In this document: positions 21,585-36,720 of the stretch, piece after piece
Layout: each line of letters opens with the position of its first letter
Numbering within the stretch: position 1 is the stretch's first letter
Source of the DNA: Mesorhizobium sp. SARCC-RB16n
GTDB lineage: Bacteria > Pseudomonadota > Alphaproteobacteria > Rhizobiales > Rhizobiaceae
Reading direction: 5' to 3'
NCBI RefSeq assembly: GCF_008520305.1
Contig: NZ_ML703264.1
Coordinates: 333,966 to 397,965 of the forward strand
DNA: 64,000 nucleotides
Position numbers and translations under genes: made by a program
Notes under the pieces: generated by a model
Seen by the model: the letters and a program-made list of their open reading frames with translations, nothing else
Database searches by the model: none
Told to the model about the DNA's origin: nothing

Positions 21585-22661
21585 TCAATTCTCGGCACCG
21601 AGGCCACGCGCCAGCTTGGCGTCCCGGTCATAAGCCCTGACGATTTCAGCCACCAGCGGATGGCGAACGACATCGACATCGTTGAAGCGCACCGTTACCG
21701 CACCTGCCACACCGTCGAGGACACGCAGGGCTTCGACCAAGCCCGATTTGGTGCTCGGGGGAAGATCGATCTGGGTCGGATCGCCGGTGACGATCATGCG
21801 CGAGTTCTCGCCGAGACGGGTGAGAAACATTTTCATCTGCATCGGCGTGGTGTTCTGCGCCTCGTCGAGAATGACGGCGGCGTGCGCCAGCGTGCGGCCG
21901 CGCATGAAGGCAAGCGGCGCGATTTCTATCACCTCGGCGGCAATCGCACGCTCGACCTTGTCGGCCGGCATCATGTCGTAGAGCGCGTCATAGAGCGGGC
22001 GCAGATACGGATCGACCTTCTCCTTCATGTCGCCCGGCAGGAAGCCCAGCCGTTCGCCGGCCTCGACAGCCGGTCGCGACAAAATGATGCGCTCGACCAT
22101 GCCGCGTTCGAGCAGCATCGCCGCATGCGCCACCGCCAGATAGGTCTTGCCGGTGCCGGCCGGACCGATGCCGAACACCAGTTCCGACCGCTCCAGCGCC
22201 CGCATATAGGCGTCCTGGTTCAGCGAGCGGGCATAGATGGTCTTCTTGCGGGTGGCGATCTGGGCGGCCGAGACCTTGCCCTTCCGCTCCAGCGTCGGCA
22301 GCGTCAGCTGATCGTCGGCGGCAATCGCCATGCGCACGGCGCCATCGACATCGGACTGGCCAATATCGACGCCCTTCTGCAGGATACCATAGAGATTGTC
22401 CAAGGCACGGCGCGCCTGTTCGGCAGCCGAAGCGGACCCTTTTATGGTCAGCTGGTTGCCGCGCGAGCGGATGTCGACGCCGAGCTTCTGCTCGAGCCGG
22501 GCCAGGTTTTCATCGAATTGGCCGTAAAGGGCGCTGGCAAGCTTGTTGTTGTCGAAAGTCAGAACGATGTGCGCCATGTCAGAAGCCCCGGATGCTGGTA
22601 CCGGGGGCAGATTCTTCAGCTCCGCTGCGCTCAACCGTCTCTCCTCATCTGCCGAGACCAT
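21585..22661 (-). CDS. phoH: PhoH-family ATPase (YbeZ)
   Basis: A 358-residue P-loop NTPase, partner of YbeY in RNA metabolism. Walker A is GPAGTGKTYLAVAHAA (about 165). Walker B with the following asparagine is AHAAVILDEAQNTTPMQMKM, and the sensor is TGDPTQIDLP. The N-terminal part (about 30-100) is KH-like. The start at 22661 overlaps the miaB stop by one base (TGATG), which favours it over the internal ATG at 22577. Confidence 0.93.
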   Translation of the reverse strand: MVSADEERRLSAAELKNLPPVPASGASDMAHIVLTFDNNKLASALYGQFDENLARLEQKLGVDIRSRGNQLTIKGSASAAEQARRALDNLYGILQKGVDIGQSDVDGAVRMAIAADDQLTLPTLERKGKVSAAQIATRKKTIYARSLNQDAYMRALERSELVFGIGPAGTGKTYLAVAHAAMLLERGMVERIILSRPAVEAGERLGFLPGDMKEKVDPYLRPLYDALYDMMPADKVERAIAAEVIEIAPLAFMRGRTLAHAAVILDEAQNTTPMQMKMFLTRLGENSRMIVTGDPTQIDLPPSTKSGLVEALRVLDGVAGAVTVRFNDVDVVRHPLVAEIVRAYDRDAKLARGLGAEN

Positions 22662-24070
22662 CAGGCCAATTCGGCGAACAGGCTGTTGTAGCCCGTCTTC
22701 GTGATTCGCACCTTGATAATGTCACCGATTTCGCCGGCCTTTTCATCAACAATAACCGGCTGCAGCCAAGGCGAGCGGCCGACCTTCTGGCCGGCCTGAC
22801 GGCCAGGTTTCTCGATCAGCGTATCTATGGTGCTGCCGACCAAACTCAAGCCGAAATCCTGCTGTTGTTTCAACAGCAGTGCCTGCAGGCGCTGCAAGCG
22901 CTCGTCCTTGACCGTTTCCGGCATGTGATCGGTCATGTCGGCGCCCGGTGTGCCGGGCCGCGGCGAATATTTGAACGAAAACGCCGAGGCGTAATTCACC
23001 TGGCGCACCAGTTCCATGGTCGCTTCGAAATCGGTTTCCGTCTCGCCGGGAAAGCCGACGATGAAGTCGCCCGACAGCGCGATGTCGGGGCGGGCGGCCC
23101 GTATGCGATCGAGCAGCGCCAGATAATCCCTCGCCGTATGCCTGCGGTTCATCGCCTTCAGAATGCGATCCGACCCTGATTGCACCGGCAGATGCAGATA
23201 GGGCATCAGCGACGGCAGGTCGCGGTGCGCGGCGATCAGTTCGTCGTCCATGTCGCGCGGATGGCTGGTGGTATAGCGCAGCCGCGCCAGGCCGGGGATT
23301 TCAGACAACCTGAACAGCAGGCGGCCGAGACCCCATTCCTGACCGTTCTCGCCCTCGCCATGCCAGGCGTTGACGTTCTGACCGAGCAGTGTCACCTCGC
23401 GCACCCCGGCTTCGGCCAGGCGCTCGGCCTCCGCGACGATCTGCGCCACCGGCCGCGACACTTCCGAGCCTCTCGTATAGGGCACGACGCAGAAGGTGCA
23501 GAATTTGTCGCAGCCTTCCTGGACGGTGAGGAAGGCGGTGACGCCGCGCTTGATCACCTCGGCACGCTTCGGCTGCGGCAGGTGTTCGAACTTGTCCTCG
23601 ATGGCGTATTCGGTCTCGACGATCTTCTCGCCACCGCGCACTCTCGCCAGGACGTCGGGCAGACGGTGATAGGTCTGAGGCCCGATGACCAGATCGACGG
23701 CCGGCGAACGGCGGATGATCTCGGCGCCCTCGGCCTGCGCCACGCAGCCGGCGACGCCGATCAGCATCTCTCGGCCGGCATTGGCGCGTTCCGCCTTCAT
23801 GTCGCGGATGCGGCCGAGTTCGGAATAGACCTTTTCGGCGGCTTTTTCCCTGATGTGGCAGGTGTTGAGCAGCACCAGATCGGCCTCGCCGATGGCAGCG
23901 GTCGCGGTGTAACCGTCGGCGGCCAGCGCGTCGGTCATGCGCTGTGAATCATAGACGTTCATCTGGCAGCCATAGGTCTTGATGAAGACCTTCCTCGCTG
24001 CCGTGGCACGCAACGCCGGCTGTCCGGCCACCGTGCCGATCTCGTCGCTTTCAATCGTGTTCAAGTCCAT
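22661..24070 (-). CDS. miaB: tRNA-2-methylthio-N6-dimethylallyladenosine synthase
   Basis: A radical-SAM methylthiotransferase modifying A37 of tRNAs that read UNN codons. The 469-residue protein has an N-terminal UPF0004 domain with three cysteines ([15 protein letters not shown] and others). The radical-SAM cluster motif is [15 protein letters not shown], and a C-terminal TRAM domain follows. ATG 24070 ([10 protein letters not shown]) is chosen over a longer frame with unrelated N-terminal residues. It is translationally coupled to phoH. Confidence 0.96.
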
Positions 24071-24145
24071 CCGGCGGCTTCTAACGCCTTTCCGTGACAA
24101 AAAACAGACGATTCTCGGCATGCGTCAGCTGGCGCATGCGGACGA

Positions 24146-24946
24146 CTAACGGCTCGGGAGCGGATCGGCGAGGGCGGCCTGCATCATCTCGCGTACTCGG
24201 CTTTCCATCAGCCTCGACGTTTCCTTGCGGTTGGAGCCCTTGGAGAAGGCGATCGGTTCGCCGAAATGCACCTCGACGTCGAGCGCGCCCTCGGCCATCA
24301 GCACCTTGAGATGCGGCATCAGGTCCTCGTCGCCGATCCAGGCGGCGATCGGGCGGTGGCGGCGGCCAAGCGGCACGCCGTGCAGGCGCGTATAGGCGAT
24401 CGCAACCGGCTGGATGAACACTTCCTGCGCGGCACCTTCCGAGATCGCCATCGAGGCAGCGCCGAACAGCGTGCTCTTGAAGGGCAGCACGACATTGCCG
24501 TCGCCGGTCGACCCCTCGGCGAACAGCACCATGGCGTCGCCCTTGGCCATACGATTGGCGATCTCGCTGACCTGGTCGCCCGAGGAGCGCTTGCGCTCGC
24601 GCTCGATGAAGACGGTGCGCTGCAGCTTCGACAGCATGCCGATCAGCGGCCAGCCTTCCATGTCGGCTCGGGCGATGAACTTCACATCGGCAAAAGAGCC
24701 CAGCACCATGATATCGGTCCAGGAGATGTGGTTCGAGGCCACCAGCAAGGGACGTTTGGTCGACAGCGTTCCCCTGACATGAATGCGCATGCCGAGCGCC
24801 CGGATGATCAACCTGTGCCAGATCTTGAGGATGACGGTTTCCGGCCACCAGCCGGTTTTCATCGACAGGATCTGCAGCGGCGCGAAAACCAGCGACCCAG
24901 CGACGACAAGGCCCAGCGCCAGGAAAATCCTGATTTTTCCGATCAT
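24146..24946 (-). CDS. olsA: 1-acyl-glycerol-3-phosphate acyltransferase family protein, OlsA-like
   Basis: A 266-residue PlsC-domain acyltransferase with an N-terminal membrane helix. The catalytic HX4D motif is NHISWTD (near residue 73), the acyl-acceptor block is FIERERKR, and FAEGSTGDG corresponds to the EGT motif. In Sinorhizobium the plsC homologue next to miaB is OlsA, which finishes ornithine lipid by O-acylating lyso-ornithine lipid. The position here supports that role, but true PlsC, which makes phosphatidic acid, cannot be excluded by motifs. rimI is the upstream neighbour. Confidence 0.75.
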   Translation of the reverse strand: MIGKIRIFLALGLVVAGSLVFAPLQILSMKTGWWPETVILKIWHRLIIRALGMRIHVRGTLSTKRPLLVASNHISWTDIMVLGSFADVKFIARADMEGWPLIGMLSKLQRTVFIERERKRSSGDQVSEIANRMAKGDAMVLFAEGSTGDGNVVLPFKSTLFGAASMAISEGAAQEVFIQPVAIAYTRLHGVPLGRRHRPIAAWIGDEDLMPHLKVLMAEGALDVEVHFGEPIAFSKGSNRKETSRLMESRVREMMQAALADPLPSR

Positions 24947-24973
24947 ATGTCCTGACCCTAGCCCGGCATCTCG

Positions 24974-25468
24974 CTAGCGAAGATCGCGGCGCATGACAAG
25001 CGCGCCGGTCGGCCCGCGATCGGGCGACTTGTAGTAATCCGGGCGCTTGCCGACTTCCCGAAAACCCAGCCGACGATAGAGGGCGATGGCGGCGGTATTG
25101 GTCTCATCGACCTCGAGGAACAAGGCTTCGGCACGCTGCGAATGCAGTTCGCGCAGCACTGCATCCATCAACTGCCAGCCCAACCCCTGGCGGCGATGCG
25201 ACCGTGTCACCGCGATGGTCAGGATTTCCCCCTCGCCCGCGGCCAGCCGGGCGAGCACGAAGCCAACAGGCGGCTTGGCGCCCTGCCCGGTTTCGCGCGC
25301 GGCATAACCGAACACGGTGTCCTGTTCGAGCAAGGCTGCGAACTCACCGTCGGTCCATGGGCGGACAAAATCCTCGCGGTGTAGCACCGACACCGCGGGG
25401 CTGTCGGTCACCTTGAGTGGCTCGAGCGCGTAGTCCCGGCGACGCGATTGGAGAAAAGGTATGCGCAT
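24974..25468 (-). CDS. rimI: Ribosomal protein S18 alanine N-acetyltransferase-like GNAT protein
   Basis: A 164-residue GNAT acetyltransferase. The acetyl-CoA loop is HRRQGLGWQLMDAVL and the C-terminal signature NTAAIALYRRLGFREVGKR is typical of RimI. ATG 25468 (MRIPFLQSRRRDY) begins the conserved part; the frame further upstream runs into the RIME-like repeat. It follows tsaB, the usual partner order tsaB-rimI. Confidence 0.88.
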   Translation of the reverse strand: MRIPFLQSRRRDYALEPLKVTDSPAVSVLHREDFVRPWTDGEFAALLEQDTVFGYAARETGQGAKPPVGFVLARLAAGEGEILTIAVTRSHRRQGLGWQLMDAVLRELHSQRAEALFLEVDETNTAAIALYRRLGFREVGKRPDYYKSPDRGPTGALVMRRDLR

Positions 25469-25488
25469 TAATTCTCGTTTTCTCGCCT

Positions 25489-25579
25489 GACCATGATCTG
25501 TGGACAAACGGGACCGTTTGTCCGCGAAAACCGGCTTCCACTTTTCGCTAACGCGGTCCTTCGGTTCGGGGTCATGGTC
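25489..25579. repeat. RIME-like intergenic palindromic repeat
   Basis: The outer arms gaccatga and tcatggtc bound a 91-base unit in the rimI-tsaB gap. Inside lies a perfect 10+10 inverted repeat, ggacaaacgg (25502-25511) with ccgtttgtcc (25514-25523), and an AAACCGGCTTCCACTTTTCG block typical of rhizobial intergenic mosaic elements. The tsaB stop codon (25574-25572) falls inside its right border. Confidence 0.7.
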
Positions 25580-26249
25580 TTTGCCTCGAAAGTATAAACC
25601 CGGCCTGCGGCTTGGCATCCGCGCCGCGCAGATAGAGCGGCTTCGGCCTTTCGCCCTGACCTTTTGCGGCAGCCAGCCAGGCGTAGGTCAGAATGTCGGC
25701 GGTGGCCGTCCGAGGCCCGATGTCGAAGATGCGGCCGGCGGCTTCGGCGATCAGCGTCGCTGCCGTACCGGCGAGCACCGCTGAACGCCCCGACGCCATG
25801 GCCACTGCGTTCGCAAGTGTGGTCACCGCCGGACCGTAAGTCAAACCTGACGTTTCATCATAAAGTGCGGCATGGATTTCCTCGCGTCCGGCATCGAGCG
25901 CCGCCAGCACGGGACGGCCCGGAAAGGCGATAGCCGCCTCGGCCGCCAGCGCCTCGAGGGTCGTCACCCCGATTGCCGGTACCTTGAGCGCCAGCGCCAG
26001 GCCGCGCGCGGTCGACACACCGACGCGCAGGCCGGTGAAGGAGCCGGGGCCGACGGAGACGGCAATGGCGCCAAGGCCGACGTAGCCGGTCGCGCCGGCC
26101 TTCAGCGCATCGGCGATGACGGCCATCAGGTGTTCTGCATGGCCTTTGCCCAGATCGAGCACCGAACGGCCGAGCTCCCGCCCCACCGCCGCGTCGTAGA
26201 CGCAGGCGGCGCAGAGGCTGGCGGCACAGTCGATGGCGAGAACTTTCAT
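25572..26249 (-). CDS. tsaB: tRNA threonylcarbamoyladenosine biosynthesis protein TsaB
   Basis: A 225-residue ASKHA-fold protein that scaffolds TsaD in t6A37 synthesis. It starts MKVLAIDCAASLCAACVYD. It has the family block GHAEHLMAVIADAL and the diagnostic VSVGPGSFTGLRVGVSTARG. ATG 26249 is the start; the much longer open frame upstream is discarded. The stop lies within the RIME-like repeat. Confidence 0.94.
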   Translation of the reverse strand: MKVLAIDCAASLCAACVYDAAVGRELGRSVLDLGKGHAEHLMAVIADALKAGATGYVGLGAIAVSVGPGSFTGLRVGVSTARGLALALKVPAIGVTTLEALAAEAAIAFPGRPVLAALDAGREEIHAALYDETSGLTYGPAVTTLANAVAMASGRSAVLAGTAATLIAEAAGRIFDIGPRTATADILTYAWLAAAKGQGERPKPLYLRGADAKPQAGFILSRQRP

Positions 26250-26356
26250 GAAACGACCGGTTCGAGAAACAATTCCCTGTGCCCGCCATGGCGCGCAACC
26301 GCAAGGGTATAGTGCATAATTTGTTAAGCGGCTTCGGTTTGGCCTGGCAGAAGAGC

Positions 26357-27463
26357 TTATGCCACCTGCTCTATGCGCAGCATGTGATTGTCCCAGACAT
26401 AGTCCGGCTCCGACCGCGTTGCACCGCCGCCCTCGATGATCTCGCCGGCGCCCGTTGTGGCCATGAAACCGGCCCCGTCGGGCGCCACGCCGCAGACCTC
26501 GACCAGCGCGCTGGAGGAGACGACCCCGCCGCTGCCCGCATCGATCACGACCAGCGAATTGCCTTCCGGCGAGGAGACTGCAACGGTACCGGCAACAGGA
26601 TTGGCGGCGACCGAGCCGATATAGTTGCGGAAACCGGACAGCACATCCCGCGGCATGTCGAGCAAAGCCAGTTCCTTGCCCCGCGCGGCACGGCCGACCA
26701 GCAGCGGACGATCGGTGCCGGGACCCCGGTACTGGCAACCGAACCAGACGGCGCCGGTCTGGTCGGCATCCATGTGGCGGATCGACAGCTGGTGCAATGC
26801 AGCCGGCAATTCGTGCTTTTCGATCAGGTCGCCAGAGACACGGTCGACAAGCACATAGGAGGGTTTCATGGTGGCAATGTTGAGCTCGGCGCGGCCATAA
26901 TCGGGATGGGTCTCGATGCCGCCATTGGCGACCGCGATCGTCCTGCCGTCACCCAGCAGCAGAAGTTCGTGCGGACCCATGCCGTAGGTCGGGAATTCGC
27001 CGATGCGATTGAATTTTGCCCGCGCATCGTAGACGCCGACGACGCCGGCCGCGTTGTCGAAATCGTTCTCGGTGGCGTAGAGCAACGCGCCGTCAGGCGA
27101 GAACACCCCGTGGCCGAAGAAATGCCGGCCGGTGATGCTGGCAATGGTCTGCGGGGCATTGCGCCCGGTATGACCGAAAACGACGGCGAATGTGCCGGGC
27201 TGGCGGGCGAAGACCACCGAACGCTTCGATATGGGATCGAAGGTGACATCATGGCCGCGATCGGGCAGGTCGATGGCATGCAGAAGCTTGCCGGCCTCGG
27301 ACAAGATGGCAGCGCCAAAGCTACCGTCGCGCTTGACGAATGCGGTGGCGAACACGGCATCGGCCGCGAGCGTGTTCGCCCAAGCTGACGGCGTCATGGC
27401 AGCGGCAAAGCTTGCACCTGCCGCTTTAAGGAAATCGCGGCGGTCGATGAGCGGCGTTTTCAA
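26357..27463 (-). CDS. Tat-exported DUF1513 beta-propeller-like protein
   Basis: A 368-residue periplasmic protein of unknown function (DUF1513). The N-terminus has a twin-arginine signal, DRRDFLKAAGASFAAAM. The rest looks like a seven-bladed propeller with repeated blade edges (VFARQPGTFAVVFG, HGVFSPDGALLYATEND, PHELLLLGDGRTIAVANGGI, HQLSIRHMDADQTGAVWFG). The start is a TTG at 27463, with AAGGAG 8 bases upstream; no ATG fits. It is the last gene of the iron island, after the second imelysin. Tat export implies folding or cofactor insertion in the cytoplasm. DUF1513 genes commonly accompany imelysin and di-heme oxidoreductase genes in alphaproteobacteria. Confidence 0.82.
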   Translation of the reverse strand: MKTPLIDRRDFLKAAGASFAAAMTPSAWANTLAADAVFATAFVKRDGSFGAAILSEAGKLLHAIDLPDRGHDVTFDPISKRSVVFARQPGTFAVVFGHTGRNAPQTIASITGRHFFGHGVFSPDGALLYATENDFDNAAGVVGVYDARAKFNRIGEFPTYGMGPHELLLLGDGRTIAVANGGIETHPDYGRAELNIATMKPSYVLVDRVSGDLIEKHELPAALHQLSIRHMDADQTGAVWFGCQYRGPGTDRPLLVGRAARGKELALLDMPRDVLSGFRNYIGSVAANPVAGTVAVSSPEGNSLVVIDAGSGGVVSSSALVEVCGVAPDGAGFMATTGAGEIIEGGGATRSEPDYVWDNHMLRIEQVA

Positions 27464-27479
27464 GGTCAGTTCTCCTTTC

Positions 27480-27526
27480 GAGCATGATCTTTCCCAAAAA
27501 GTCTGTAACTTTTCGGGATCATGCTC
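27480..27526. repeat. Short RIME-like palindrome
   Basis: gagcatgatc (27480-27489) and gatcatgctc (27517-27526) are perfect inverted arms around AAAAAG..ACTTTTCGG, the half-unit of the rhizobial intergenic mosaic element. It fills the gap between the imelysin stop and the DUF1513 start. The imelysin stop codon (27527-27525) is at its border. Confidence 0.72.
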
Positions 27527-28604
27527 AGTCCCCATCCAGCGACGAGAAGCCGGCGGTCAGGCCGAATTCGGCGGTCAGCCTGGTGCCGATCAGGGTCGAC
27601 AGGCTGGAGGTGATCAGGGCGAAATGCTCGAGTTTTTCGCGCAGCGCCGGATCGGCGAGCGCCTTGTCGATCGGGCCATGGACGGCCTTGGCGGTCGCGA
27701 CGCCGTTGACCAGCTGGATGTGGATCGATTCCGCCATCCAGCGCGCATCCGGCGACAGCGCATCGCCAAGCTTCGACACCTGGAACAGCGCATCGATGCC
27801 GGCCAGATTTCCAGCCAGCGCATTGGCGGTGTTTTGCGAGCGCCAGTAGATCGCCTGTTTTGGCTTGTCGGCGTCGGGCTTGGCGCCCAGAAAACCCTTC
27901 AGGCGCACATCGCGGACCATTTCCAGCTCGTTGATGAAGACACCGACCAGTTCGGTGACCGCCTCGTTGCCATCACGATAGAGCGCATTTTGCGGCCCCG
28001 GATTGGCCCACAGTGCCGCGAAGCCGTCCGGTTTGTTCCAGGCGGCGCTGACGTCCGCGGCGATGGTTTCGATGTTGCCGGCAACGGATGCGCCATAAGC
28101 GCAGCGATAGGATTCGTCCTTGCCCGTCAAGGCATCGGCGCCGTCGCCGTAAAGCACGAATTCCAGTGCGCCGAGTCCCTGCATGGCAACGCTCTTGCCG
28201 GCAAGCTGAACAGAATCGGTGGCGGCTGGATCTTTCTCCGACAGCGCCGCCTGCACCTGTTTCAGACCGATGCTCTTGCGGTCCGGCCAGAACAGCATGC
28301 GCTCCAGCCTGTTGTTCTCCTTGATCGGCCCGAAACCGATGATCTCGGCCGATGACCAGGCATAGACGGTAGCCGAAAACGCAGCCCGCGCGGCTTCGAG
28401 GTTCGCTTGCGAGGGTGCCTCGCAGAGCTTGTGCATCGCCTTCGCTAGGGCTTCCGCATGCTGGTGCAGGCCGTTATATGCCGGGCGGACAAAGCCGTCG
28501 ATAGCGCGCTGGATGACGTCAGAGGCTTTCACCGCGGCCGATGCGGGCAAGGCGCCCAGCAGAGCCAGCGGAAGAATGAGGACCAGCGCGAAACGCTTCG
28601 GCAT
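27525..28604 (-). CDS. Imelysin-family (peptidase M75-like) periplasmic protein
   Basis: A 359-residue protein with a Sec signal (MPKRFALVLILPLALLGALP, cleavage near SAA). It has the two four-helix bundle halves of the imelysin/EfeO-type fold. The hallmark GxHxxE motif of the family is altered: GLGALEFVLYG has Gly where His is expected. The N-terminal part keeps AWSSAEIIGFGPIKENNR and RLERMLFWPDRKS. Its ATG overlaps the stop of the di-heme oxidoreductase (TGATG). Imelysins act in iron acquisition or handling outside the cytoplasm; protease activity is doubtful for most members. Confidence 0.88.
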   Translation of the reverse strand: MPKRFALVLILPLALLGALPASAAVKASDVIQRAIDGFVRPAYNGLHQHAEALAKAMHKLCEAPSQANLEAARAAFSATVYAWSSAEIIGFGPIKENNRLERMLFWPDRKSIGLKQVQAALSEKDPAATDSVQLAGKSVAMQGLGALEFVLYGDGADALTGKDESYRCAYGASVAGNIETIAADVSAAWNKPDGFAALWANPGPQNALYRDGNEAVTELVGVFINELEMVRDVRLKGFLGAKPDADKPKQAIYWRSQNTANALAGNLAGIDALFQVSKLGDALSPDARWMAESIHIQLVNGVATAKAVHGPIDKALADPALREKLEHFALITSSLSTLIGTRLTAEFGLTAGFSSLDGD

Positions 28605-30205
28605 CAAAGTGACTCCAGTAATTTGACCAATGCATCGCGCTCGGTGGCGCTGGTGGCGGCAAAGCGGTCGCGCGCCTTCTGCGCCTCGCCACCATGCCAC
28701 AGGATAGCCTCGACCAAAGAGCGCGCTCGGCCATCGTGCAGATAGAAGGAATTGCCGTTGACCGTTTCGGTGAGGCCGATGCCCCATAGCGGCGGGGTGC
28801 GCCACTCATTGCCAGTCGCCTCGCCCACGGCCTGGCCGTCGGCAAGATCCGGTCCCATGTCGTGCAGCAGGAAGTCGGAATAAGGCCAGATCAACTGGAA
28901 CGCCTGCGCCTTGTCAGGCGCATCGCGACGGGTGACGAATTTCGGCGTATGACAGGCAACGCAGCCGATTTCGTAAAAGACCTTCTTGCCGGCGAGCACA
29001 TCAGGCGAGGCGAGGTCGCGCCGCGCTGGCACCGCCAGGTTCTGCGCATAAAAGGTGACGAGATCCATCACCGGCGCCGGTGCCTCGACGGGGCCGAGAC
29101 GTTCCTGCACGCCGTTGGGCATGGCGAGGCATTTTTCCTGCGCTGCGGTGCAATCACCCCAGTGTTTCGGCTCCTCGGGCGTCGAGATGCCGATGTCGCC
29201 GGCAAAGGCATCCGCCGCCTGCTGGCGGATCGACACCGTCTGCGCTTTCCAGCCGAAACGGCCAAGCGCCAGCCCACCGCTCGGGCCATCACGCACGATG
29301 TTCGGCTTGCCGGAGATGCCATCGCCGTCCCTGTCGTCCGGATCGGCATGAGCCAGGATGTCCGCCGGCGCGATCTGCTCGATCAGGCCAAGGCCGATCA
29401 TGGGCGGTGTCAGGCGCGGTGACAAGGTTGTGCGCAGATCGAGCGCTCCGTAGGCGAGATCGGTGACGGAATAGCTGGGCTTGCGCAGGGAAATGACAGT
29501 GCCGTCCGTCAGTTCCACCTTACGTTCCTGATAGTCGACACGCATCCTGCCCTCGCCCCTGAGGCCGGGGACGGCCAGTTCCTGCAACTGCGTGCCGTAG
29601 ACCGGGTCTGGGAGATTGAGCAGCCTGTGGTCGGCGAGCGCCGCCTTCTCTTCCGCGCTGCTTGCGTCGCGCGCCAGCCGCAGGAACATCGAGGTGGTGC
29701 CGGCATCGCCTTGCGGCGGCCGGCCACGGCCATCCTTCAGATGGCAGTTCTGGCAGGCGCGTTCGTTGAACAGGGGCCCAAGTCCATCGGAGGCCTGCGT
29801 CGAGGATGGCGACGACACCCAGTTCTTGCGGAAAAGTGCGTTGCCGAGCTTGAAGGTACCTTCTTCCTCGAAGGTGATGTTGGCCGAGGGTTGCGAGAAG
29901 GAATCACGGCTGACGTCCTTCCGCGAGGTGCCCGCGCCACCTTGCATCGGTTCGAAGGGCTCGGGTTTGGAGAAATCCACGGTCGGCCCGGTGACGGCGG
30001 TGACGCGCGCCTGATCCTTGGCATCGAGGTCGGTGCGGATGGTGGCGAGGCCTTCAGGTTGAAGGCCTCCGGCGATCGCGGAGGATGTCAGCGCCAGCAT
30101 GAAAATGATACCGCGCCGACCAGCCGATATGGCTGGTGTTTTCCGGAGGGGCAGCGGGGCTTTTGCCTGCCGCAAGCGGCGCAGGAAGTCTAAGAGGCGC
30201 CGCAT
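28604..30205 (-). CDS. Di-heme c-type oxidoreductase (DUF1111/DHOR family)
   Basis: A 533-residue exported protein, formerly called thiol oxidoreductase. After an N-terminal hydrophobic segment (IIFMLALTSSAIAGG) it carries two haem c sites: CQNCH at 151-155 (after LGPLFNERA) and CVACH at 415-419 (after KKVFYEIG). The C-terminal segment WRTPPLWGIGLTETVNGNSF is typical of the family, which is related to di-haem peroxidases such as MauG and CcpA. It sits 12 bases after bfr and is coupled to the imelysin gene. A redox step on iron (ferric/ferrous) is the natural guess, not proven. Confidence 0.9.
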   Translation of the reverse strand: MRRLLDFLRRLRQAKAPLPLRKTPAISAGRRGIIFMLALTSSAIAGGLQPEGLATIRTDLDAKDQARVTAVTGPTVDFSKPEPFEPMQGGAGTSRKDVSRDSFSQPSANITFEEEGTFKLGNALFRKNWVSSPSSTQASDGLGPLFNERACQNCHLKDGRGRPPQGDAGTTSMFLRLARDASSAEEKAALADHRLLNLPDPVYGTQLQELAVPGLRGEGRMRVDYQERKVELTDGTVISLRKPSYSVTDLAYGALDLRTTLSPRLTPPMIGLGLIEQIAPADILAHADPDDRDGDGISGKPNIVRDGPSGGLALGRFGWKAQTVSIRQQAADAFAGDIGISTPEEPKHWGDCTAAQEKCLAMPNGVQERLGPVEAPAPVMDLVTFYAQNLAVPARRDLASPDVLAGKKVFYEIGCVACHTPKFVTRRDAPDKAQAFQLIWPYSDFLLHDMGPDLADGQAVGEATGNEWRTPPLWGIGLTETVNGNSFYLHDGRARSLVEAILWHGGEAQKARDRFAATSATERDALVKLLESL

Positions 30206-30217
30206 TCCCGCATATCC

Positions 30218-30703
30218 TTAGTCCGCCTCGTCCGCCGATGCGGCGTTGAGCTGGCCGTATTTTTCCTCGCCGATCGAGGCCAGCAGGTCGAGCTGCGTCT
30301 CGAGGAAGTCGATATGGCTTTCCTCATCGGTCAGCAGTTCCTCGAACAGTTTCATCGTCACGTAATCGCCCGCTTCCTCGCAGATTTCGCGCGAGCGCTT
30401 GTAGGCTGTACGCGCGTCATATTCGCCGGCAAGGTCGGATTCGAGCACTTCCTTGACGTTCTGGCCGATGCGCAGCGGCGCCACGGACTGAAGGTTCGGA
30501 TGGCCTTCAAGGAAGATGATGCGGGCCACCAACCTGTCGGCGTGGTGCATCTCCTCGATCGATTCCGCCCGCTCCTTCTTGGCCAGCTTGACGTATCCCC
30601 AATCCTCGAGCAGACGGAAATGCACCCAATACTGATTGACGGCGCCGAGCTCCAGAAAAAGAGCTTCGTTAAGCCGCTCGATGACCTGTGGTTCGCCTTT
30701 CGT
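30218..30703 (-). CDS. bfr: Bacterioferritin, apparent ACG start
   Basis: A 24-mer iron-storage ferritin with haem at subunit dimers. Counting the ACG codon at 30703-30701 as residue 1 puts all key residues at their E. coli numbers: ferroxidase Glu18, Glu51, His54, Glu94, Glu127, His130, and haem ligand Met52. This ACG is exactly where the family has ATG (family MKGD..., here ACG AAA GGC GAA). GGGAG lies 9 bases upstream. No ATG, GTG or TTG is nearby in frame; the frame opens at 30829 inside bfd, adding 42 residues unlike any ferritin. It is either a rare ACG start, a sequence error, or a true mutation. The 3' end of bfd overlaps its first 35 bases, so translation of bfd reaches this point. 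Confidence 0.85.
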
Positions 30704-30980
30704 GGGTTCTGCTCCCGTATTGGACGCGCAGGCCTCTGACGCGATCCAGATGCGAAACGATGTCCACGCCGATCGCCTGCGAGCGGCCATGGTAGTTCTC
30801 GGTGACCCGAATGATCGTTTCGACCACATTTGGGAAACAGCCGCAACAGCGACCCCGTTTGTGCATGGCGTGATAGACCTTTGCCGGCACGATGAGCTGC
30901 CAGGGATCCTGATCCAGCAGGCCGATGATCGTCTGCTCGATCTCCTTTTCGGTGATGATGTTGCAATGGCAGATCAGCAT
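30669..30980 (-). CDS. bfd: Bacterioferritin-associated ferredoxin
   Basis: A [2Fe-2S] protein that donates electrons to bacterioferritin to release stored iron. Four cluster cysteines are visible as ICHCN (C4, C6) and CCGCFPNV (CxxC near residues 47-50), in the Bfd fold. The N-terminal 70 residues match the family (usually 64-90 long). The tail (about 75-103), rich in Arg and His, is unusual and reads through the beginning of bfr. It may be a shifted or recently extended end. ATG 30980. It lies between the IrpA-like gene and bfr. Confidence 0.9.
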
Positions 30981-31035
30981 TTCGTCGCTCTGGCTGACGG
31001 CGCCGGTGCGCTGCCGTTTGGCTGGGATGGTAGGC

Positions 31036-32328
31036 TTACTTGAACACCTTGTCGGGTGCGTCGAGGCTATCGGAGCCTTCGAAGGCGATGGTGTTCAACT
31101 TCAACGAACCGACCGCACGCTCGATCGACTTGGTCTGGTCGATCAGCGCATCGATCGCCGCCTGAACAGTGGCATTGCCCGCGGTATTGCCTTCGGCGAT
31201 CTGCTGGTCATAGGCCTCGCCGGCCTCGGCCCGCGCCTTGATCGCCTCCATCTTGGCGACGGTGACATCGAGCTTGTCAGACAGTTCCCTGTCGATCGCC
31301 GGATCGGCCGCCTTCACCATGTCCGACACCGATGGCCCCGAAACGACGGTGCCGTCCAGCCTGGTGTAGCTGGCGTGGTAGGCGGCGCGGATGCCGACGG
31401 CGTCATAGAGATGCGAGTTGTAGGTGTTGTCCGAGAAGCAGTCCTGCTCCTCTTCGGGATCGTGCAGCAACAGCCCGAGTTTCATGCGTTCGCCTGCCAG
31501 TTCGCCATAGGACAGCGAGCCCATGCCGGTGAAGATAATCGAGATGGCGGTATTCGGTTCGCCATCGACGAGGTTCTTGCGCGCGGCGCCGTCTTCCTTC
31601 CAGTCGTTGACCATCTTCTGCAGGTCCGAGACCAGAAGGCCAGTCGCCGACTTCAGGTACTCTGCGCGACGGTCGCAATTGCCTCCGGTGCAGTTCTTCA
31701 GGTCGTAATCCGTATAGGGACGCTCGCCGGCGCCCGGACCGGTGCCGTGCAGGTCCTGGCCCCAGAGCAGGAATTCGATGGCGTGATAGCCGGTGGCGAC
31801 GTTGGCTTCGATGCCGCCAGCCTGCTGCAGCGTGCCGGACAGGAATTCCGGCGAAAGCTTCGACGCATCGACCTTCTTGCCGTTGATCTCGATCTCCTTG
31901 TTGGCGATCACATCGGCGGTATAGAGCGAATTCGCGTCGGACTCGGTGCCGTAGCTCTTGGCGACATAATCGATCAGGCCTTCGTCCAGCGGCCAGGAAT
32001 TCACCTCACCTTCCCAGTCATCGACGATCTTGTTGCCGAAGCGGTAGACCTCAGTCTGCTGGTAGGGCGCCCGCGATGCCTTCCAAGCGTCGCGGGCGGC
32101 ATTGAGCGTTTCCGCCGACGGGTTGGCAAGCAGGGCATCGACCGCCTTGTCGAGTGCCTGCACCGTGGTCAGCGAATCCTCATATTTGGCAAGCCCGATG
32201 TCGGCATAGGTCTTGATGACCGCCTTCGCATCGGTTTCTGCCTTGGCGGGCAGCACGAACACCGCTGCCGTCAGCAGCGCCGTGGCGCCGATCGCCGCAA
32301 GCCTGCCGCCATACCGTGCAGTCATCAT
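31036..32328 (-). CDS. IrpA-like imelysin, iron-regulated exported protein
   Basis: A 430-residue member of the imelysin/M75 family, IrpA type. The Sec signal ends at PAKA (residues 1-30). The hallmark motif is intact: GYHAIEFLLWGQD, where His and Glu are proposed metal ligands. Other conserved blocks are RFGNKIVDDWEGEVNSWPLD and EEEQDCFSDNTYNSHLYDA. ATG 32328 has GGAG upstream; it could also be the next ATG. It is the first gene of the island, about 250 bases downstream of the Irr box. The protein is thought to bind iron at the cell surface or in the periplasm. Confidence 0.9.
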   Translation of the reverse strand: MMTARYGGRLAAIGATALLTAAVFVLPAKAETDAKAVIKTYADIGLAKYEDSLTTVQALDKAVDALLANPSAETLNAARDAWKASRAPYQQTEVYRFGNKIVDDWEGEVNSWPLDEGLIDYVAKSYGTESDANSLYTADVIANKEIEINGKKVDASKLSPEFLSGTLQQAGGIEANVATGYHAIEFLLWGQDLHGTGPGAGERPYTDYDLKNCTGGNCDRRAEYLKSATGLLVSDLQKMVNDWKEDGAARKNLVDGEPNTAISIIFTGMGSLSYGELAGERMKLGLLLHDPEEEQDCFSDNTYNSHLYDAVGIRAAYHASYTRLDGTVVSGPSVSDMVKAADPAIDRELSDKLDVTVAKMEAIKARAEAGEAYDQQIAEGNTAGNATVQAAIDALIDQTKSIERAVGSLKLNTIAFEGSDSLDAPDKVFK

Positions 32329-32579
32329 CACTCTCCAGTTTCTCGGGAATTCTGCGAACTGCGCGCGCGGCAGCCAGCACCAGGCCGTGTGCACGCCACC
32401 GGCCGCAAGGTATGCCGCGCTATCGCGCGGCTCAGGGAAGAAAGACACCAAAAATGCCTCCAATCGAACGGGTTCAAGGCCCAGACATCAAAGGGATGCG
32501 CCAATGCGCGAGCTTCCTTAAAGCTTCGAGTCCGATGGAAGTCAATCCAAATTACCGGAAAAGCCAATTGAAACAATAG

Positions 32580-32596
32580 TTTAGAATTATTCTAAA
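32580..32596 (-). promoter_or_regulatory. Irr box (iron control element, ICE) in the divergent promoter region
   Basis: TTTAGAATTATTCTAAA is a palindrome with one centre base and fits the Irr-binding ICE consensus TTTAGAA-N3-TTCTAAA of Rhizobiales exactly. The symmetry extends to TAG/CTA on both sides (32577-32599). On the minus strand a -35-like TTGACC lies at 32609-32604, and the box covers the place of the -10, so Irr bound here would block the iron island promoter. The 428-base gap (32329-32756) otherwise shows no gene; it also holds the start region of the divergent flavoprotein gene. Confidence 0.85.
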
Positions 32597-32756
32597 CTAC
32601 GACGGTCAACTTTACGCGTCGCTGCACCGGCTTTGCGGCCAAACTGTACGATTGACAGTCGCCATCCCGGGTGCGACCCGCAAACCCTCTCTTGCGGCGG
32701 CGCCAGACAATTGCCACTTGGCGGGACGTCCTAGGATCGAACGGGATCGGAATGCG

Positions 32757-34010
32757 ATGAAAAACGGCGTGGTCATTGTCGGTGCGGGTCATGCGGGCGT
32801 GCAGGCGGCCGCAAGTCTGCGCGAGGATGGCTATGATGGGCCGGTGATCCTGGTCGGCGACGAGAACGAACTGCCCTACCACAAGCCACCGCTGTCGAAG
32901 ACCTTCATCAAGGATGCCGAGGCCAAGCCGCAACCGCTTCGGGGCGAGGCCTTCTACACCGGCAGCGCCATCGACTACCGGCCGGATATCCGGATCGAGC
33001 GCATCGATGCCGGCCGCAACAGTCTCGACATTGCCGGCGGCGGCGCACTTGCCTTCGACCATCTGATCCTGGCGACCGGATCGCGCCCGCGCCTATTGCC
33101 ACTGCCCGGTGCGGAGCTTTCCGGCGTACTGTCGCTGCGCTCGCTGGCCGATGCGCGGCGGATCCGGGAGCTGAGCGCGCAGAGCGAAGATGTCGTCATC
33201 CTCGGCGGCGGCTTCATCGGGCTAGAGATCGCAGCGACGCTGCGGGCTGCCGGCCGCACAGTGACGGTCGTCGAAGCGGTCGACCGGCTGCTCGGCCGCG
33301 CCGTGGCGCCGGTCGTGGCGAGTCATGTCCGGCAAAGGCTGGAAGCGACAGGCGTGCGCATCCTCACCGGCACCTCGATTTCAAGGCTCGACGGCGAAAA
33401 CGGCCATGTCACGGCCGCGATCACCTCATCAGGCGAAAGGCTGCCGGCGCGCATGGTCGTCGTCGGCATCGGCGCCGTGCCGAATGTCGAACTGGCGCAA
33501 GCCGCCGGCCTTGCCGTCGCCAACGGCATCCGCGTCGATCACCAGATGCGCAGCTCGGTGCCGGAGATTCTAGCAATCGGCGACGCCGCCTCGTACCGGC
33601 ATTGGTTCACCGGCGGCGACGTGCGACTGGAATCGGTGCAGAACGCCACCGACCAGGCGCGCCTCGCAGCACGGACCATCACCGGCCACACCGATGCCTA
33701 TTCGGCGGTGCCATGGTTCTGGTCCGACATCGGCGACATGAAATTGCAGATGGTCGGCCTGACCGCCGGCGGCGACAGCCATGTCGTGCTCGGCGATCTC
33801 GCTGACAACAAGTTCTCGATCTACCACTACGCCGGCGACAGCCTGCTCGGCATCGAATCCGTCAACCGCCCCGGGGACCACATGCTTGGCCGCAAGATGC
33901 TCGGCGCCGGTTTCTCGCCGACGCCGCAGGCGGTTGCGACAGGGCCAGATGAGTTGAAGGCGGCGCTTGCAGCGTTCCAGCAGGCCGCGCCGACCCGCGC
34001 TGCGGAGTGA
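32757..34010 (+). CDS. NAD(P)H/FAD-dependent ferredoxin (rubredoxin/putidaredoxin) reductase-type oxidoreductase
   Basis: A 417-residue flavoprotein. It starts MKNGVVIVGAGHAGVQAAAS with the FAD GxGxxG motif, followed by NELPYHKPPLSKTFI. The NAD(P)H loop is VILGGGFIGLEIAATLRAAG, and the second FAD contact is VPEILAIGDAAS. The C-terminal reductase domain has WFWSDIGDMKLQMVG. The family transfers electrons from NAD(P)H to a small iron-sulphur protein. The partner is not adjacent; Bfd on the other side of the shared promoter region is a conceivable but unproven partner. ATG 32757 is chosen over the longer frame that starts in the intergenic region. Confidence 0.88.
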   Translation: MKNGVVIVGAGHAGVQAAASLREDGYDGPVILVGDENELPYHKPPLSKTFIKDAEAKPQPLRGEAFYTGSAIDYRPDIRIERIDAGRNSLDIAGGGALAFDHLILATGSRPRLLPLPGAELSGVLSLRSLADARRIRELSAQSEDVVILGGGFIGLEIAATLRAAGRTVTVVEAVDRLLGRAVAPVVASHVRQRLEATGVRILTGTSISRLDGENGHVTAAITSSGERLPARMVVVGIGAVPNVELAQAAGLAVANGIRVDHQMRSSVPEILAIGDAASYRHWFTGGDVRLESVQNATDQARLAARTITGHTDAYSAVPWFWSDIGDMKLQMVGLTAGGDSHVVLGDLADNKFSIYHYAGDSLLGIESVNRPGDHMLGRKMLGAGFSPTPQAVATGPDELKAALAAFQQAAPTRAAE

Positions 34011-34035
34011 TGCGACGCACCGCGGACCCCGAGCA

Positions 34036-35313
34036 TCAGGCGGCGCAGACTTCGCGGATCGAGCTTTCCAGGATGTCGAGCGCCTCGTTCATGACCTCGT
34101 CCTGGATGGTAATTGGCGCCAGGAAGCGGATGACGTTGCCGTAGACGCCGCAGGTCAAGAGGATCAGGCCCTTGTCGAGCGCCTTCAGGCGGATCGCGTT
34201 GGCGATCTCGGCCGACGGCAGGCCCTTCTTGACGTCGTTGAACTCGACCGCGTTCATGAAGCCCAAACCCCTGATGTCGACAATCTCGGGCACGTCGTCA
34301 CGGATCGACTGCAGACGCTGCTTAAGCCTCGCACCCAGCGTGTTGGCGCGGTCGCAGAGCTTTTCGTCCTCGATGACATCCAGAACCGCATGTGCCGCGG
34401 CAACGCCGATCGGGCTGCCGCCATAGGTGCCGCCGAGGCCGCCGGGGCTGGGCGCATCCATGATCTCGGCGCGGCCGGTGACCGCCGACAGCGGGAAGCC
34501 GCCGGCCAGGCTCTTGGCCATTGTGGTGATGTCGGCCGCCACCTCATGATGGTCCATGGCGAACATCTTGCCGGTACGGGCAAAGCCGGTCTGCACCTCA
34601 TCGGCAATGAGCAGCATGCCGTGCTGGTCGCAGAGCTTGCGCAGCGCCGTCAGGAGTTCGCGCGGCGCGTCGTAGAAGCCGCCCTCGCCCTGAACCGGCT
34701 CGATGATGATCGCGGCGACCCGGGCCGGATCGACATCCGCCTTGAACAGCTTGTCGAGTGCGGCCAGCGAATCGGCCACCGAGACACCATGCAGTTGCAC
34801 GGGGAACGGCACGTGGTAGACGTCGCCCGGCATGGCTCCGAAGCCAACCTTGTAGGGCACGACCTTGCCGGTCAGCGCCATGCCCATGAAGGTGCGGCCG
34901 TGGAAGCCGCCGCCAAAGGCGATGACGGCCTGGCGGCCGGTGGCATTGCGAGCGATCTTGATGGCGTTCTCGACCGCCTCGGCGCCGGTGGTGACGAAGA
35001 TCGTCTTCTTCTCGAACTTGCCGGGCAGCATTGCGTTCAACCGTTCGGCCAGCCTGACATAGCTTTCATAAGGAACCACCTGGTGGCAGGTGTGGGTAAA
35101 ACGGTCGAGCTGCGCCTTGACCGCCTCGATCACCCTGGGGTGGCGGTGGCCGGTGTTGACGACGGCGATGCCCGAGGAGAAGTCGATATAGCGGCGGCCC
35201 TCGACATCCCAGATCTCCGAGTTCTCGGCCCGGTCGGCGTAGATCTGCGTGGTCATGCCGACACCGCGCGAGATCGACTGGTTCTTGCGTTCGGAAATGG
35301 CGGAGTTCTTCAT
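34036..35313 (-). CDS. gabT: 4-aminobutyrate (GABA) aminotransferase
   Basis: A PLP-dependent class III aminotransferase of 425 residues converting GABA and 2-oxoglutarate to succinate semialdehyde and glutamate. It has GHRHPRVIEAVKAQLD, the cofactor block TTGAEAVENAIKIAR, the ADEVQTGFARTGKMFAMDH aspartate and the catalytic lysine in TTMAKSLAGGFPLSAVTGR. ATG 35313 has GAGG upstream. No gabD is adjacent, so relatives using 5-aminovalerate or beta-alanine are possible. It converges with the flavoprotein gene, 25 bases apart. Confidence 0.9.
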   Translation of the reverse strand: MKNSAISERKNQSISRGVGMTTQIYADRAENSEIWDVEGRRYIDFSSGIAVVNTGHRHPRVIEAVKAQLDRFTHTCHQVVPYESYVRLAERLNAMLPGKFEKKTIFVTTGAEAVENAIKIARNATGRQAVIAFGGGFHGRTFMGMALTGKVVPYKVGFGAMPGDVYHVPFPVQLHGVSVADSLAALDKLFKADVDPARVAAIIIEPVQGEGGFYDAPRELLTALRKLCDQHGMLLIADEVQTGFARTGKMFAMDHHEVAADITTMAKSLAGGFPLSAVTGRAEIMDAPSPGGLGGTYGGSPIGVAAAHAVLDVIEDEKLCDRANTLGARLKQRLQSIRDDVPEIVDIRGLGFMNAVEFNDVKKGLPSAEIANAIRLKALDKGLILLTCGVYGNVIRFLAPITIQDEVMNEALDILESSIREVCAA

Positions 35314-35464
35314 GATATCCCTCACCGGGCCGTCGCCCGTTCTGTTTGATGCCGTCTGCAAGTCTTCTGGCCTTATTTCATGTTTTCCTCAAGTCGGCAC
35401 CGTCGACTGGCAATTGGGCCTGTGGCGGTGCCTTGCGACGTCCTGCCACACTTTCAACTGGCCG

Positions 35465-35482
35465 ATCCGTACATGTACGGAT
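35465..35482. promoter_or_regulatory. Perfect 18-bp palindrome before the RND operon, likely operator
   Basis: ATCCGTACATGTACGGAT reads the same on both strands. It lies 102 bases before the first adaptor start and about 150 from the gabT start, in a 270-base divergent gap with no other gene. Efflux operons are often repressed by TetR-family dimers binding such sites, but no regulator gene is adjacent. Confidence 0.55.
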
Positions 35483-35583
35483 GTCCGGCCGGCTCCTTGC
35501 ATGTTCCTTTTTTCCGGGGATCGACTATCTTGGCTGCCTGCGACGCGGCACCGTGAGCTGCGCTTTGCGCGGATGAGGGAACC

Positions 35584-36720
35584 ATGAGCAGGAACGTGAC
35601 GTCGTCCGCCCCGCCGCCATCGGTCAGCACCTTCAACCTTTTGCCATTTCGCAGTGTCCCAACCATTCTGACCTGCACGGCAGCAATGCTGCTGGCCGGC
35701 TGCCAGAAGCAGGAGGCGGCGAACAAACTGCCGGTAATGGTGCGCACCGAGACGGTGGCGATCGCCGACTATGCGCCGAGAACGTCGCTGACCGGGGTGA
35801 TCGCGGCGCGCACGCTGAACAATCTTTCGTTCCGGGTCGGTGGCCGCGTCGCCGAACGGCTTGTCGATGTCGGCCAACACGTAGACCAGGGCGCGGTGCT
35901 TGCCCGCATTGACCCGCAGGAGCAGGAATCCGATTTGCGTTCGGCGCAGGCCGATCTCGATGCCGCGCAGGCGCAATTGACGCAGGCCGCGGCCACGTTC
36001 GAGCGGCAAAAGACGCTGCTTGCCCAGGGCTTCACCACCAGGCGCGACTATGACACCGCCGACCAGGCGCTGAAGGTGGCGAAAGGCAGCGTCGATGCCG
36101 CGCAGAGCGCGCTCGCCAATGCCCAGCAGAACCTGTCCTTCACCGAACTCAAGGCCGGTGCGGCCGGCGTGATCACCGCCCGGCAGGTCGAGGCTGGCCA
36201 GGTGGTGCAGGCGGCGCAAACCGTCTTCACCGTCGCCGAGGACGGCGACCGCGACGCGGTGTTCAATGTGCAGGAGACGCTGGTCGCCAGGACGCCGACC
36301 TCTCCGGCGGTGACGATCACGCTGTTGTCCGATCCGCAGGTCAGGGCAACAGGCAAGGTGCGCGAAATCTCGCCGGCGGTCGACCCGACCTCGGGCTCGA
36401 TAAGGGTCAAGGTCGCCATTCCCGACACGCCCGCCGGTATGCCGCTGGGGGCGGCCGTCATCGGCTCGGTCGGCGCCAAGCCGGCGAAGGCGATCCTTTT
36501 GCCTTGGCAGGCCCTGACATCCAGCGCCGGCAAGCCGGCGGTCTGGCTCGTCGATCCCGCGACCAAGGCGGTGACGACGACTCCTGTCGAGGTGCTGGCC
36601 TACGATTCGGGACCCGTCGTCATCGCCAAAGGGCTGGTCGCGGGCCAGAGCGTGGTGACTGCGGGCGGGCAGTTGCTCAGCCCCGGCCAAACGGTCGAGA
36701 TATCGGGAGCGGCGCAATGA
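35584..36720 (+). CDS. RND efflux periplasmic adaptor, lipoprotein (first of two)
   Basis: A 378-residue membrane-fusion protein of the HlyD/AcrA type. The signal ends in a lipobox, AMLLAGC (Cys near residue 40). The biotinyl-lipoyl halves VGGRVAERLVDVGQHVDQGA and the AAGVITARQVEAGQVVQ region flank a coiled-coil hairpin rich in Ala/Gln (about 120-180). The beta-barrel and membrane-proximal domains follow. The start at 35584 gives a rather long 40-residue leader; a shorter start within the signal is possible. The stop overlaps the second adaptor (ATGA). Confidence 0.9.
   Translation: MSRNVTSSAPPPSVSTFNLLPFRSVPTILTCTAAMLLAGCQKQEAANKLPVMVRTETVAIADYAPRTSLTGVIAARTLNNLSFRVGGRVAERLVDVGQHVDQGAVLARIDPQEQESDLRSAQADLDAAQAQLTQAAATFERQKTLLAQGFTTRRDYDTADQALKVAKGSVDAAQSALANAQQNLSFTELKAGAAGVITARQVEAGQVVQAAQTVFTVAEDGDRDAVFNVQETLVARTPTSPAVTITLLSDPQVRATGKVREISPAVDPTSGSIRVKVAIPDTPAGMPLGAAVIGSVGAKPAKAILLPWQALTSSAGKPAVWLVDPATKAVTTTPVEVLAYDSGPVVIAKGLVAGQSVVTAGGQLLSPGQTVEISGAAQ

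Follow-up and report, generated by a model that had tools for sequence, protein, structure and literature searches.

Positions 26357-32596 of the DNA analyzed here (the window; 64,000 nucleotides of Mesorhizobium sp. SARCC-RB16n) hold a Mesorhizobium-like locus on the minus strand, in which the genes irpA, bfd, bfr, DHOR (di-heme c-type oxidoreductase), a second imelysin gene and DUF1513 lie downstream of an iron control element (ICE, or Irr box). We hold with moderate confidence that the locus is one Irr-dependent iron-starvation operon, which Irr would activate from the ICE at low iron and which would combine a periplasmic iron-handling module with iron storage. The six genes and the box had been predicted from the sequence letters, and reading of the open reading frames together with searches of Pfam and NCBIfam located them at the claimed place. 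The original prediction also stands in that the gene unit is conserved, has a box of the Irr type and includes exported parts that recur together. In contrast, the reading as a new iron system was rejected, since the same gene order has already been published for R. sphaeroides (PMC4618611). The operon is a variant of the one already seen in that organism, and the island is real, old and conserved. New here are the predicted sign of Irr control, a leader element, a probably lost neighboring gene and the start codon of bfr; the original prediction had not covered the sign, the leader or the start codon.

In R. sphaeroides, hemP-irpA-bfd-bfr-RSP_1545-1543 was described in 2015 as co-transcribed, RSP_1545 being a probable thiol oxidoreductase with two cytochrome c heme sites (PMC4618611). 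It is followed by a signal-peptide protein and a hypothetical protein; judged by gene order, RSP_1544 would be the imelysin and RSP_1543 the DUF1513 protein. From irpA on, the order is that of the window (irpA, bfd, bfr, DHOR and two exported genes), whereas control differs, with IscR and Iron-Rhodo boxes in R. sphaeroides and Irr and an ICE here. Moreover, R. sphaeroides has hemP first, while the next gene upstream in the window encodes a divergent Pyr_redox_2/Reductase_C oxidoreductase (no search was aimed at hemP or the Iron-Rhodo box). R. sphaeroides irpA, bfd and bfr rise under iron limitation (PMC3413700, PMC4176601). Together with their co-transcription with RSP_1545-1543, this argues for a starvation response of the Mesorhizobium genes, which would likewise be transcribed together.

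Conservation of the gene order

When named genomes were scanned with DHOR, 357 related stretches were obtained, and the best 80 of these were compared (77 of the 80 record titles name Mesorhizobium). The intact order irpA-bfd-bfr-DHOR-imelysin-DUF1513 was present in 76 of the 80 named loci, which supports the reading as one operon. The four exceptions lack bfr (L038), have irpA (L083) or DHOR (L106) in pieces, or are cut at a contig end (L109). In the window, bfr and DHOR are separated by 12 bases and DHOR overlaps the second imelysin gene in TGATG, exactly as predicted earlier; the gaps left out of that description are 55 bases between irpA and bfd and 61 bases between the second imelysin gene and DUF1513. 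The bfd and bfr genes overlap by 35 bases. Terminator-like sites were at chance level (6 found, 5.6 expected).

For wider comparison, gene orders were written in letters (I, irpA; d, bfd; F, bfr; D, DHOR; J, second imelysin; P, DUF1513). DHOR was matched in 99 of 151 genomes of the same family, from which 72 regions outside the genus code of genome G001, a near relative of the window strain, were taken. These showed IDJP (37), IdFDJP (27), IDJJP (2), ID (2) and, once each, IdFFDJP, IDPJ, IFDJP and DJPI. Seven regions from other families of the order had IDJP (3) or ID, IdFD, D and DJP (1 each). In the class, DHOR was matched in 56 of 240 genomes, and 40 regions from 39 of them showed IDJP (27), ID (7), D (5) and IDIJP (1), none with bfr in the cluster. 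Judging from these orders, irpA-DHOR-imelysin-DUF1513 is a widespread module and bfd-bfr an insertion into it; the locus comparisons thus bear out the recurrence of the exported parts, and the 27 IDJP regions of the class add support to the starvation reading. Two loci are duplicates, L115 of L105 (M. albiziae) and L222 of L038; both were dropped from the ICE and leader locus counts given below, but are still included in the order tallies, the Fur-box scan, the scan for a Cys/His-rich gene, the ICE-anchored rows and the tree traits.

Such an insertion could mean that bfd-bfr are passengers between irpA and DHOR, which share a promoter with the exported proteins and have no functional link to them. 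We consider this unlikely. The many regions with plain IDJP (37 of 72 in the family, 27 of 40 in the class) are in line with it, as is one strain (L003, L038, L222) that lost bfr and kept the rest. However, bfd-bfr occupy the same place in two orders, in Hyphomicrobiales on the one hand and in Pseudorhodobacter and R. sphaeroides (PMC4618611) on the other; the Pseudorhodobacter turbinis copy (L254) is an irpA-bfd-bfr-DHOR-imelysin-DUF1513 cluster on a plasmid. Furthermore, the bfr trait is clustered on a DHOR tree (FastTree, 115 rows), requiring 8 changes (at least 5 by starred branches) compared to 31.4 after shuffling; 42 of the 110 inner branches of this tree are open. Paracoccus sp. AK26 and Sulfitobacter pontiacus carry the module without bfd-bfr, S. 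pontiacus with a hypothetical gene in that place. Searching 385 class genomes for Bfd gave 3, G001 among them, and we take Bfd to be too short for a search at class distance. In G026 (L026 / L217), a 2.3 Mb genome from another family of the order, irpA-bfd-bfr were accompanied by only short DHOR fragments; here the module may be decaying while bfd-bfr stay.

The ICE box and Irr

The ICE (TTTAGAATAATTCTAAA; 32580-32596, minus strand) is a perfect match to the ICE pattern, and its first base lies 268 bases from the irpA start. Of the 80 named loci, 78 carry an exact ICE no more than 430 bases upstream, and the remaining two (L105 and L109) have one with a single mismatch. Whole genomes contain very few exact sites (2 in G001, 2 in G004 and 1 in G006), and the reversed control pattern gave 0. 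On these counts, chance is excluded as the origin of the box. One of the two exact sites in G001 and G004 belongs to this operon and the other precedes a ferritin-VIT gene, which we take from its sequence to be mbfA-like; the sole exact site in G006 is that of the mbfA-like gene. The ICE of this mbfA-like iron exporter gene stops 15-16 bases short of the ATG (three genomes; L111, L113, L114).

An Irr gene is present in G001 and G004, ~31 kb from the operon, and scored over the cut-off for the IrrA and Irr equivalogs of NCBIfam. With an ICE at the promoter and Irr encoded in these two near relatives, the operon is a predicted member of the Irr regulon, on the assumption that the window strain has Irr as well. 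Rodionov 2006 may already predict this box. Searches for further members of the Fur family gave three proteins in G001 with Zur as best NCBIfam match, below cut-off, and one unclassified protein in G004. In G145, from another genus, one further protein was found at 144.8 bits, which presumably is Fur/Mur-like.

An ICE with at most one mismatch was present in 79 of 79 Mesorhizobium loci with bfr, in the single one without bfr and in 22 of 28 other family loci with bfr. None of 35 irpA upstream regions of 590 bases from the class set had an ICE with up to three mismatches, and a wider search (from 1000 bases upstream to 250 bases into the frame) found one in 1 of 40 regions; a plain-shuffle control covered the 590-base search and the wide search was run without one. 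Fur-like boxes (up to 5 of 19 mismatches) were instead found at 7 of the 35 class irpA upstream regions, compared to 0.6% of shuffles. On these counts, the regulator has apparently been exchanged around a fixed module, and the presence of the Fur-like boxes is a further argument for a starvation role. With Fur-like boxes, IscR and Irr in different alphaproteobacteria, the module illustrates well how regulators can be replaced while the gene set stays fixed.

Promoter geometry and the predicted sign of Irr control

To compare promoter positions, 123 loci having an ICE with at most two mismatches were aligned at the ICE (81 Mesorhizobium rows and 42 others). A candidate promoter, P2 (32517-32545, minus strand), consists of TTGACT at 32540-32545, a 17-base spacer and a -10-like TTTAAG. 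All 81 Mesorhizobium rows and 24 of the 42 others have its TTGAC at 50-54 bases from the ICE start, while 13 of the 42 non-Mesorhizobium rows have TTGAC at 26 bases. With the transcription start estimated by geometry from P2, the ICE center would lie ~78 bases upstream. Thus P2 stands at a fixed distance downstream of the ICE at the irpA operon, whereas the ICE of the mbfA-like gene abuts the start codon. This suggests that Irr activates the operon at low iron. In Bradyrhizobium, an ICE upstream of the promoter confers positive control (PMC3836376, citing Rudolph 2006). The Irr protein is stable when iron is low (PMC4902296).

Should the geometry argument hold, ICE boxes of one class would act in opposite directions on two iron genes within one genome, mbfA being off and irpA-bfr on when iron is low. 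Most of these genomes would then make the only bacterioferritin found in them during starvation, against the usual rule of storage in plenty.

The proposed mechanism is as follows. At low iron, stable Irr would bind the ICE upstream of P2 and activate transcription of irpA-bfd-bfr-DHOR-imelysin-DUF1513. The four exported proteins would form a periplasmic module for iron acquisition. IrpA would bind iron at its His-Glu site; EfeM, which consists of an M75 domain only, took up ferric iron on incubation with an iron salt (PMC9174327), and iron binding by IrpA is proposed on this basis. The two c-hemes of DHOR could change the redox state of iron (or peroxide), and the second imelysin and the DUF1513 protein, a predicted propeller, could have a carrier or docking role, passing iron on to a permease whose gene lies elsewhere. 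Bfd and Bfr would be produced at the same time, so that incoming iron is buffered and old stores are mobilized.

Several points weigh against this model. At the promoter, P2 was not found by a generic consensus promoter scan (which gave one site only, inside DHOR), and its -10 is weak. A -35-like TTGACC (32604-32609, minus strand), which starts 13 bases before the ICE in conserved columns, marks a possible second promoter, P1; the ICE would lie in its spacer and -10, a place for a repressor. Among the 43 family loci without bfr, an ICE-like site was found in 3, 13 and 28 at up to one, two and three mismatches, respectively, indicating that ICE control is not tied to bfd-bfr. Regarding the proteins, a sequence search with DHOR found no solved relative, and none of the six genes matched a permease family in Pfam. 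Among the papers listed in literature searches, none dealt with the Mesorhizobium operon or gave expression data for it. Finally, both bfr and mbfA are repressed by Irr in Bradyrhizobium (PMC4902296).

The last point, together with P1, leads to an alternative in which Irr represses the operon and high iron turns it on, as for Bradyrhizobium mbfA and bfr; it would serve storage and the detoxification of surplus iron in the envelope. In G001 and G004 just one other perfect site exists, that of the mbfA-like gene, and this shared perfect ICE fits the alternative. So does the position of the ICE, which heads an operon whose bfr is the only one found in 11 of 12 genomes. We nevertheless regard repression as rather unlikely. 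The -35 of P2 is better conserved than that of P1; 48 of the 81 Mesorhizobium rows have the TTGAC of P1 at its offset, as do 2 of the 42 others. In addition, part of the class has the module under Fur-like boxes, starvation induces it in R. sphaeroides, and imelysin operons have been linked to uptake (PMC3143127). The Irr/ICE targets of Bradyrhizobium (bfr, mbfA, hmuR-hmuT; PMC4902296, PMC3836376) resemble the present case in the ICE box and in having bfr among them. However, bfr is repressed there at its own promoter (PMC4902296), whereas in the window it comes third in an operon of the uptake type, whose ICE precedes the better conserved promoter site.

Protein families and predicted folds

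Five of the six genes are firmly supported by their Pfam matches, Bfd being the exception. IrpA (31036-32328, minus strand) matched Peptidase_M75 (PF09375, 9.3e-87) and keeps the GxHxxE motif (as GYHAIE), which assigns it to the IrpA/ICMP branch of the imelysin superfamily. Its best solved relative is 7xrx (7.4e-120, over 385 residues), and a Sec-like signal was recognized by eye. The second imelysin (27525-28604, minus strand) also has an M75 domain (PF09375, 3e-50) and a Sec-like signal by eye; its motif is of the GxxxxE type (GLGALE), that of the IPPA branch, and its nearest solved relative is the imelysin-like protein 3pf0 (2.3e-12). The two imelysins thus correspond to the pair of types described by Xu 2011.

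Bfd (bacterioferritin-associated ferredoxin-like; 30669-30980, minus strand; 103 residues) is the weakest of the six calls, with 16.1 bits (E 0.014) against a Fer2_BFD cut-off of 26, and does not reach family membership by score. We call it Bfd-like for its cysteines, in CxC and CCxC motifs, and for its position next to bfr, both of which agree with this name.

DHOR (28604-30205, minus strand) matched PF06537 (3.3e-95) and has two CxxCH motifs, at residues 151 and 415. Its hydrophobic N-terminus, judged by eye, makes export likely. Pfam describes this family as a putative peroxidase, which raises the alternative that the exported part serves mainly in peroxide or redox defense, with DHOR acting as a di-heme peroxidase, the imelysins sequestering Fenton-active iron and Bfr storing iron. 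In iron-limited R. sphaeroides, irpA and bfd were induced less strongly under oxic conditions when OxyR was missing (PMC4176601). We nevertheless consider a role primarily in defense quite improbable, as the boxes found are iron boxes (the ICE here and Fur-like boxes in part of the class; no search was aimed at OxyR sites).

DUF1513 (26357-27463, minus strand; likely start TTG) matched PF07433 (1.3e-107). A twin-arginine motif (RRDFL) was seen, while the Pfam match to the twin-arginine (Tat) signal was below cut-off. A structure model built from 42 close sequences had a mean pLDDT (predicted local distance difference test) of 76, and its best PDB matches are beta-propellers, namely the seven-bladed design 7bid (TM 0.60 by query length) and the YVTN propeller YncE. 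The propeller suggested earlier for DUF1513 therefore reappears as a predicted fold, and these matches indicate fold, not function. No papers on DUF1513 were found in the literature searched.

Clusters of this kind have been noted before. An imelysin-DUF1111-imelysin cluster was linked to iron uptake in 2011, when the biochemistry of the imelysin module was called poorly understood, and the P. aeruginosa operon is Fur-regulated (Xu and others, PMC3143127). Like the window, P. aeruginosa PA4370-PA4373 and V. cholerae VC1264-VC1266 combine an ICMP/IrpA-type with an IPPA-type imelysin, and the P. aeruginosa operon also has a DUF1111-type protein, called an EfeB homologue there. In contrast to the window, these operons are under Fur, not Irr, and bfd-bfr are not named for them in the excerpts of that paper (PMC3143127). 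The EfeUOB system shares with the six genes the M75/imelysin domain (in EfeO) and the logic of a binding protein combined with a heme enzyme. Membership in EfeUOB was rejected, as the six genes include neither EfeU, the Ftr1-type permease, nor a DyP peroxidase. EfeB belongs to the DyP peroxidases (PMC9174327, PMC3577903) and is not a di-heme c protein, yet PMC3143127 places EfeB in DUF1111.

Bacterioferritin

The bfr gene (30218-30703, minus strand) matched Pfam Ferritin and, in NCBIfam, TIGR00754 with 179.6 bits (4.2e-53; cut-off 125.55), and is thus a bacterioferritin. Its best solved relatives are 9gzu, 3fvb and 8sqo. The motifs EEMHHAD and EESH are present, which we take to provide the heme and ferroxidase ligands.

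In the window, bfr starts with ACG (30701-30703, minus strand), and no ATG, GTG or TTG is available at the start. In contrast, ATG was found at this position in 99 of 99 loci with a bfr match (91 distinct sequences). The window frame is otherwise open, and its protein is 98% identical to the L041 copy. The ACG could serve as an inefficient start, could mark a gene that is weakened or lost, or could stem from a base error.

The operon bfr is the only TIGR00754 match in 11 of 12 Mesorhizobium genomes. In the remaining strain, G013 (L038 / L222), bfr is missing from the operon and TIGR00754 has no match in the whole genome, which suggests that Mesorhizobium can live without bfr. In L145, the bfr frame is in two pieces within the operon.

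A conserved leader element upstream of irpA

A leader block (32457-32494, minus strand) lies ~100 bases from the ICE, contains GGGCCTTGAACCC and GATTGGAGG and is almost invariant in Mesorhizobium. It includes a predicted hairpin, GGGCCUUGAACCC, and an outer stem that would pair with the ribosome-binding site AUUGGAGG. The core pattern of the leader was present in 80 of 80 named loci, in 19 of 28 family loci with bfr and in 3 of 43 without. Outside the family, 1 of the 7 loci from elsewhere in the order had it, and none of the 40 class loci did. A 13-mer of the leader occurs once per genome, at the operon, in four Mesorhizobium genomes (G001, G004, G006 and G013). It was present in 11 of 12 genomes but is unspecific alone, with a second site in G134, G067 and G029 and only sites elsewhere in G099, G023 and G181.

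RNAalifold folded the leader block into the hairpin, with the outer stem over the ribosome-binding site. Hairpin pairing is kept in 99.4% of cells; no pair is changed on both sides, all changes being one-sided. Covariation does not prove the hairpin, since 476 of 500 shuffles reached the observed percentage; only the slid controls favor it, with 55.0% (-1) and 75.1% (+1) pairing. The 231-base leader alone folds no more strongly than shuffles (z -0.12). Rfam gave six matches on 22000-36000, all below gathering scores and none in 32457-32494.

Downstream of the block, a reading frame with a GTG start (32329-32448, minus strand; MSFF.EPR...) runs into irpA in the window and is poorly conserved beyond its first eight codons. 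It was rejected as an N-terminal extension of IrpA, as it stops before irpA in 30 of the 80 named loci. A coding role of the conserved HPFDVWALNPFDWR peptide was also rejected, because changes are not limited to third positions and there is no fixed start.

We tentatively propose, as a possibility that we hold with some doubt, that the leader is a second, RNA-level switch, in which the hairpin (loop CCUUGAA) and the outer stem would gate translation of the leader frame or of a lost Cys/His-rich gene. Irr would then set transcription, and an iron-, heme- or RNA-borne signal would set translation of the sole bacterioferritin and its uptake partners.

A Cys/His-rich gene between the leader and irpA

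In 22 distinct loci, an unnamed Cys/His-rich protein of ~165-180 residues is encoded directly upstream of irpA, after the leader block (L105:4344-4838 in M. albiziae and 21 others). It carries the motifs CxxCPL and HxxCRDEC. Only L105 among the 80 named loci has the gene; the other 79 are without it, and in the window the interval between ICE and irpA has no room for it. The protein matched no NCBIfam family at E 5; one copy gave no Pfam match and another three matches below cut-off. A single-sequence model was worthless (pLDDT 39.9). The distribution is patchy, with 11 changes on the DHOR tree. Loss upstream of irpA in Mesorhizobium is the simpler reading and probably the correct one, although independent gains may have occurred. 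The leader hairpin and this unnamed gene are two concrete handles on the imelysin module.

Neighboring genes and the imelysin-DUF1513 gap

The upstream neighbor of the operon is the divergent oxidoreductase gene (32652-34010, plus strand), whose FAD-dependent product matched Pyr_redox_2 and Reductase_C in Pfam. It adjoins irpA in 79 of the 80 named loci, and its intergenic region is common with the ICE. Beyond DUF1513 follow tsaB, identified by NCBIfam, and a rimI-like frame named by eye.

Between the second imelysin gene and DUF1513, an inverted repeat, GAGCATGATC...GATCATGCTC, is present at 27480-27526. A like insert was found in 12 of the 77 gaps measured in named loci, while the gap is at most 15 bases in 57.

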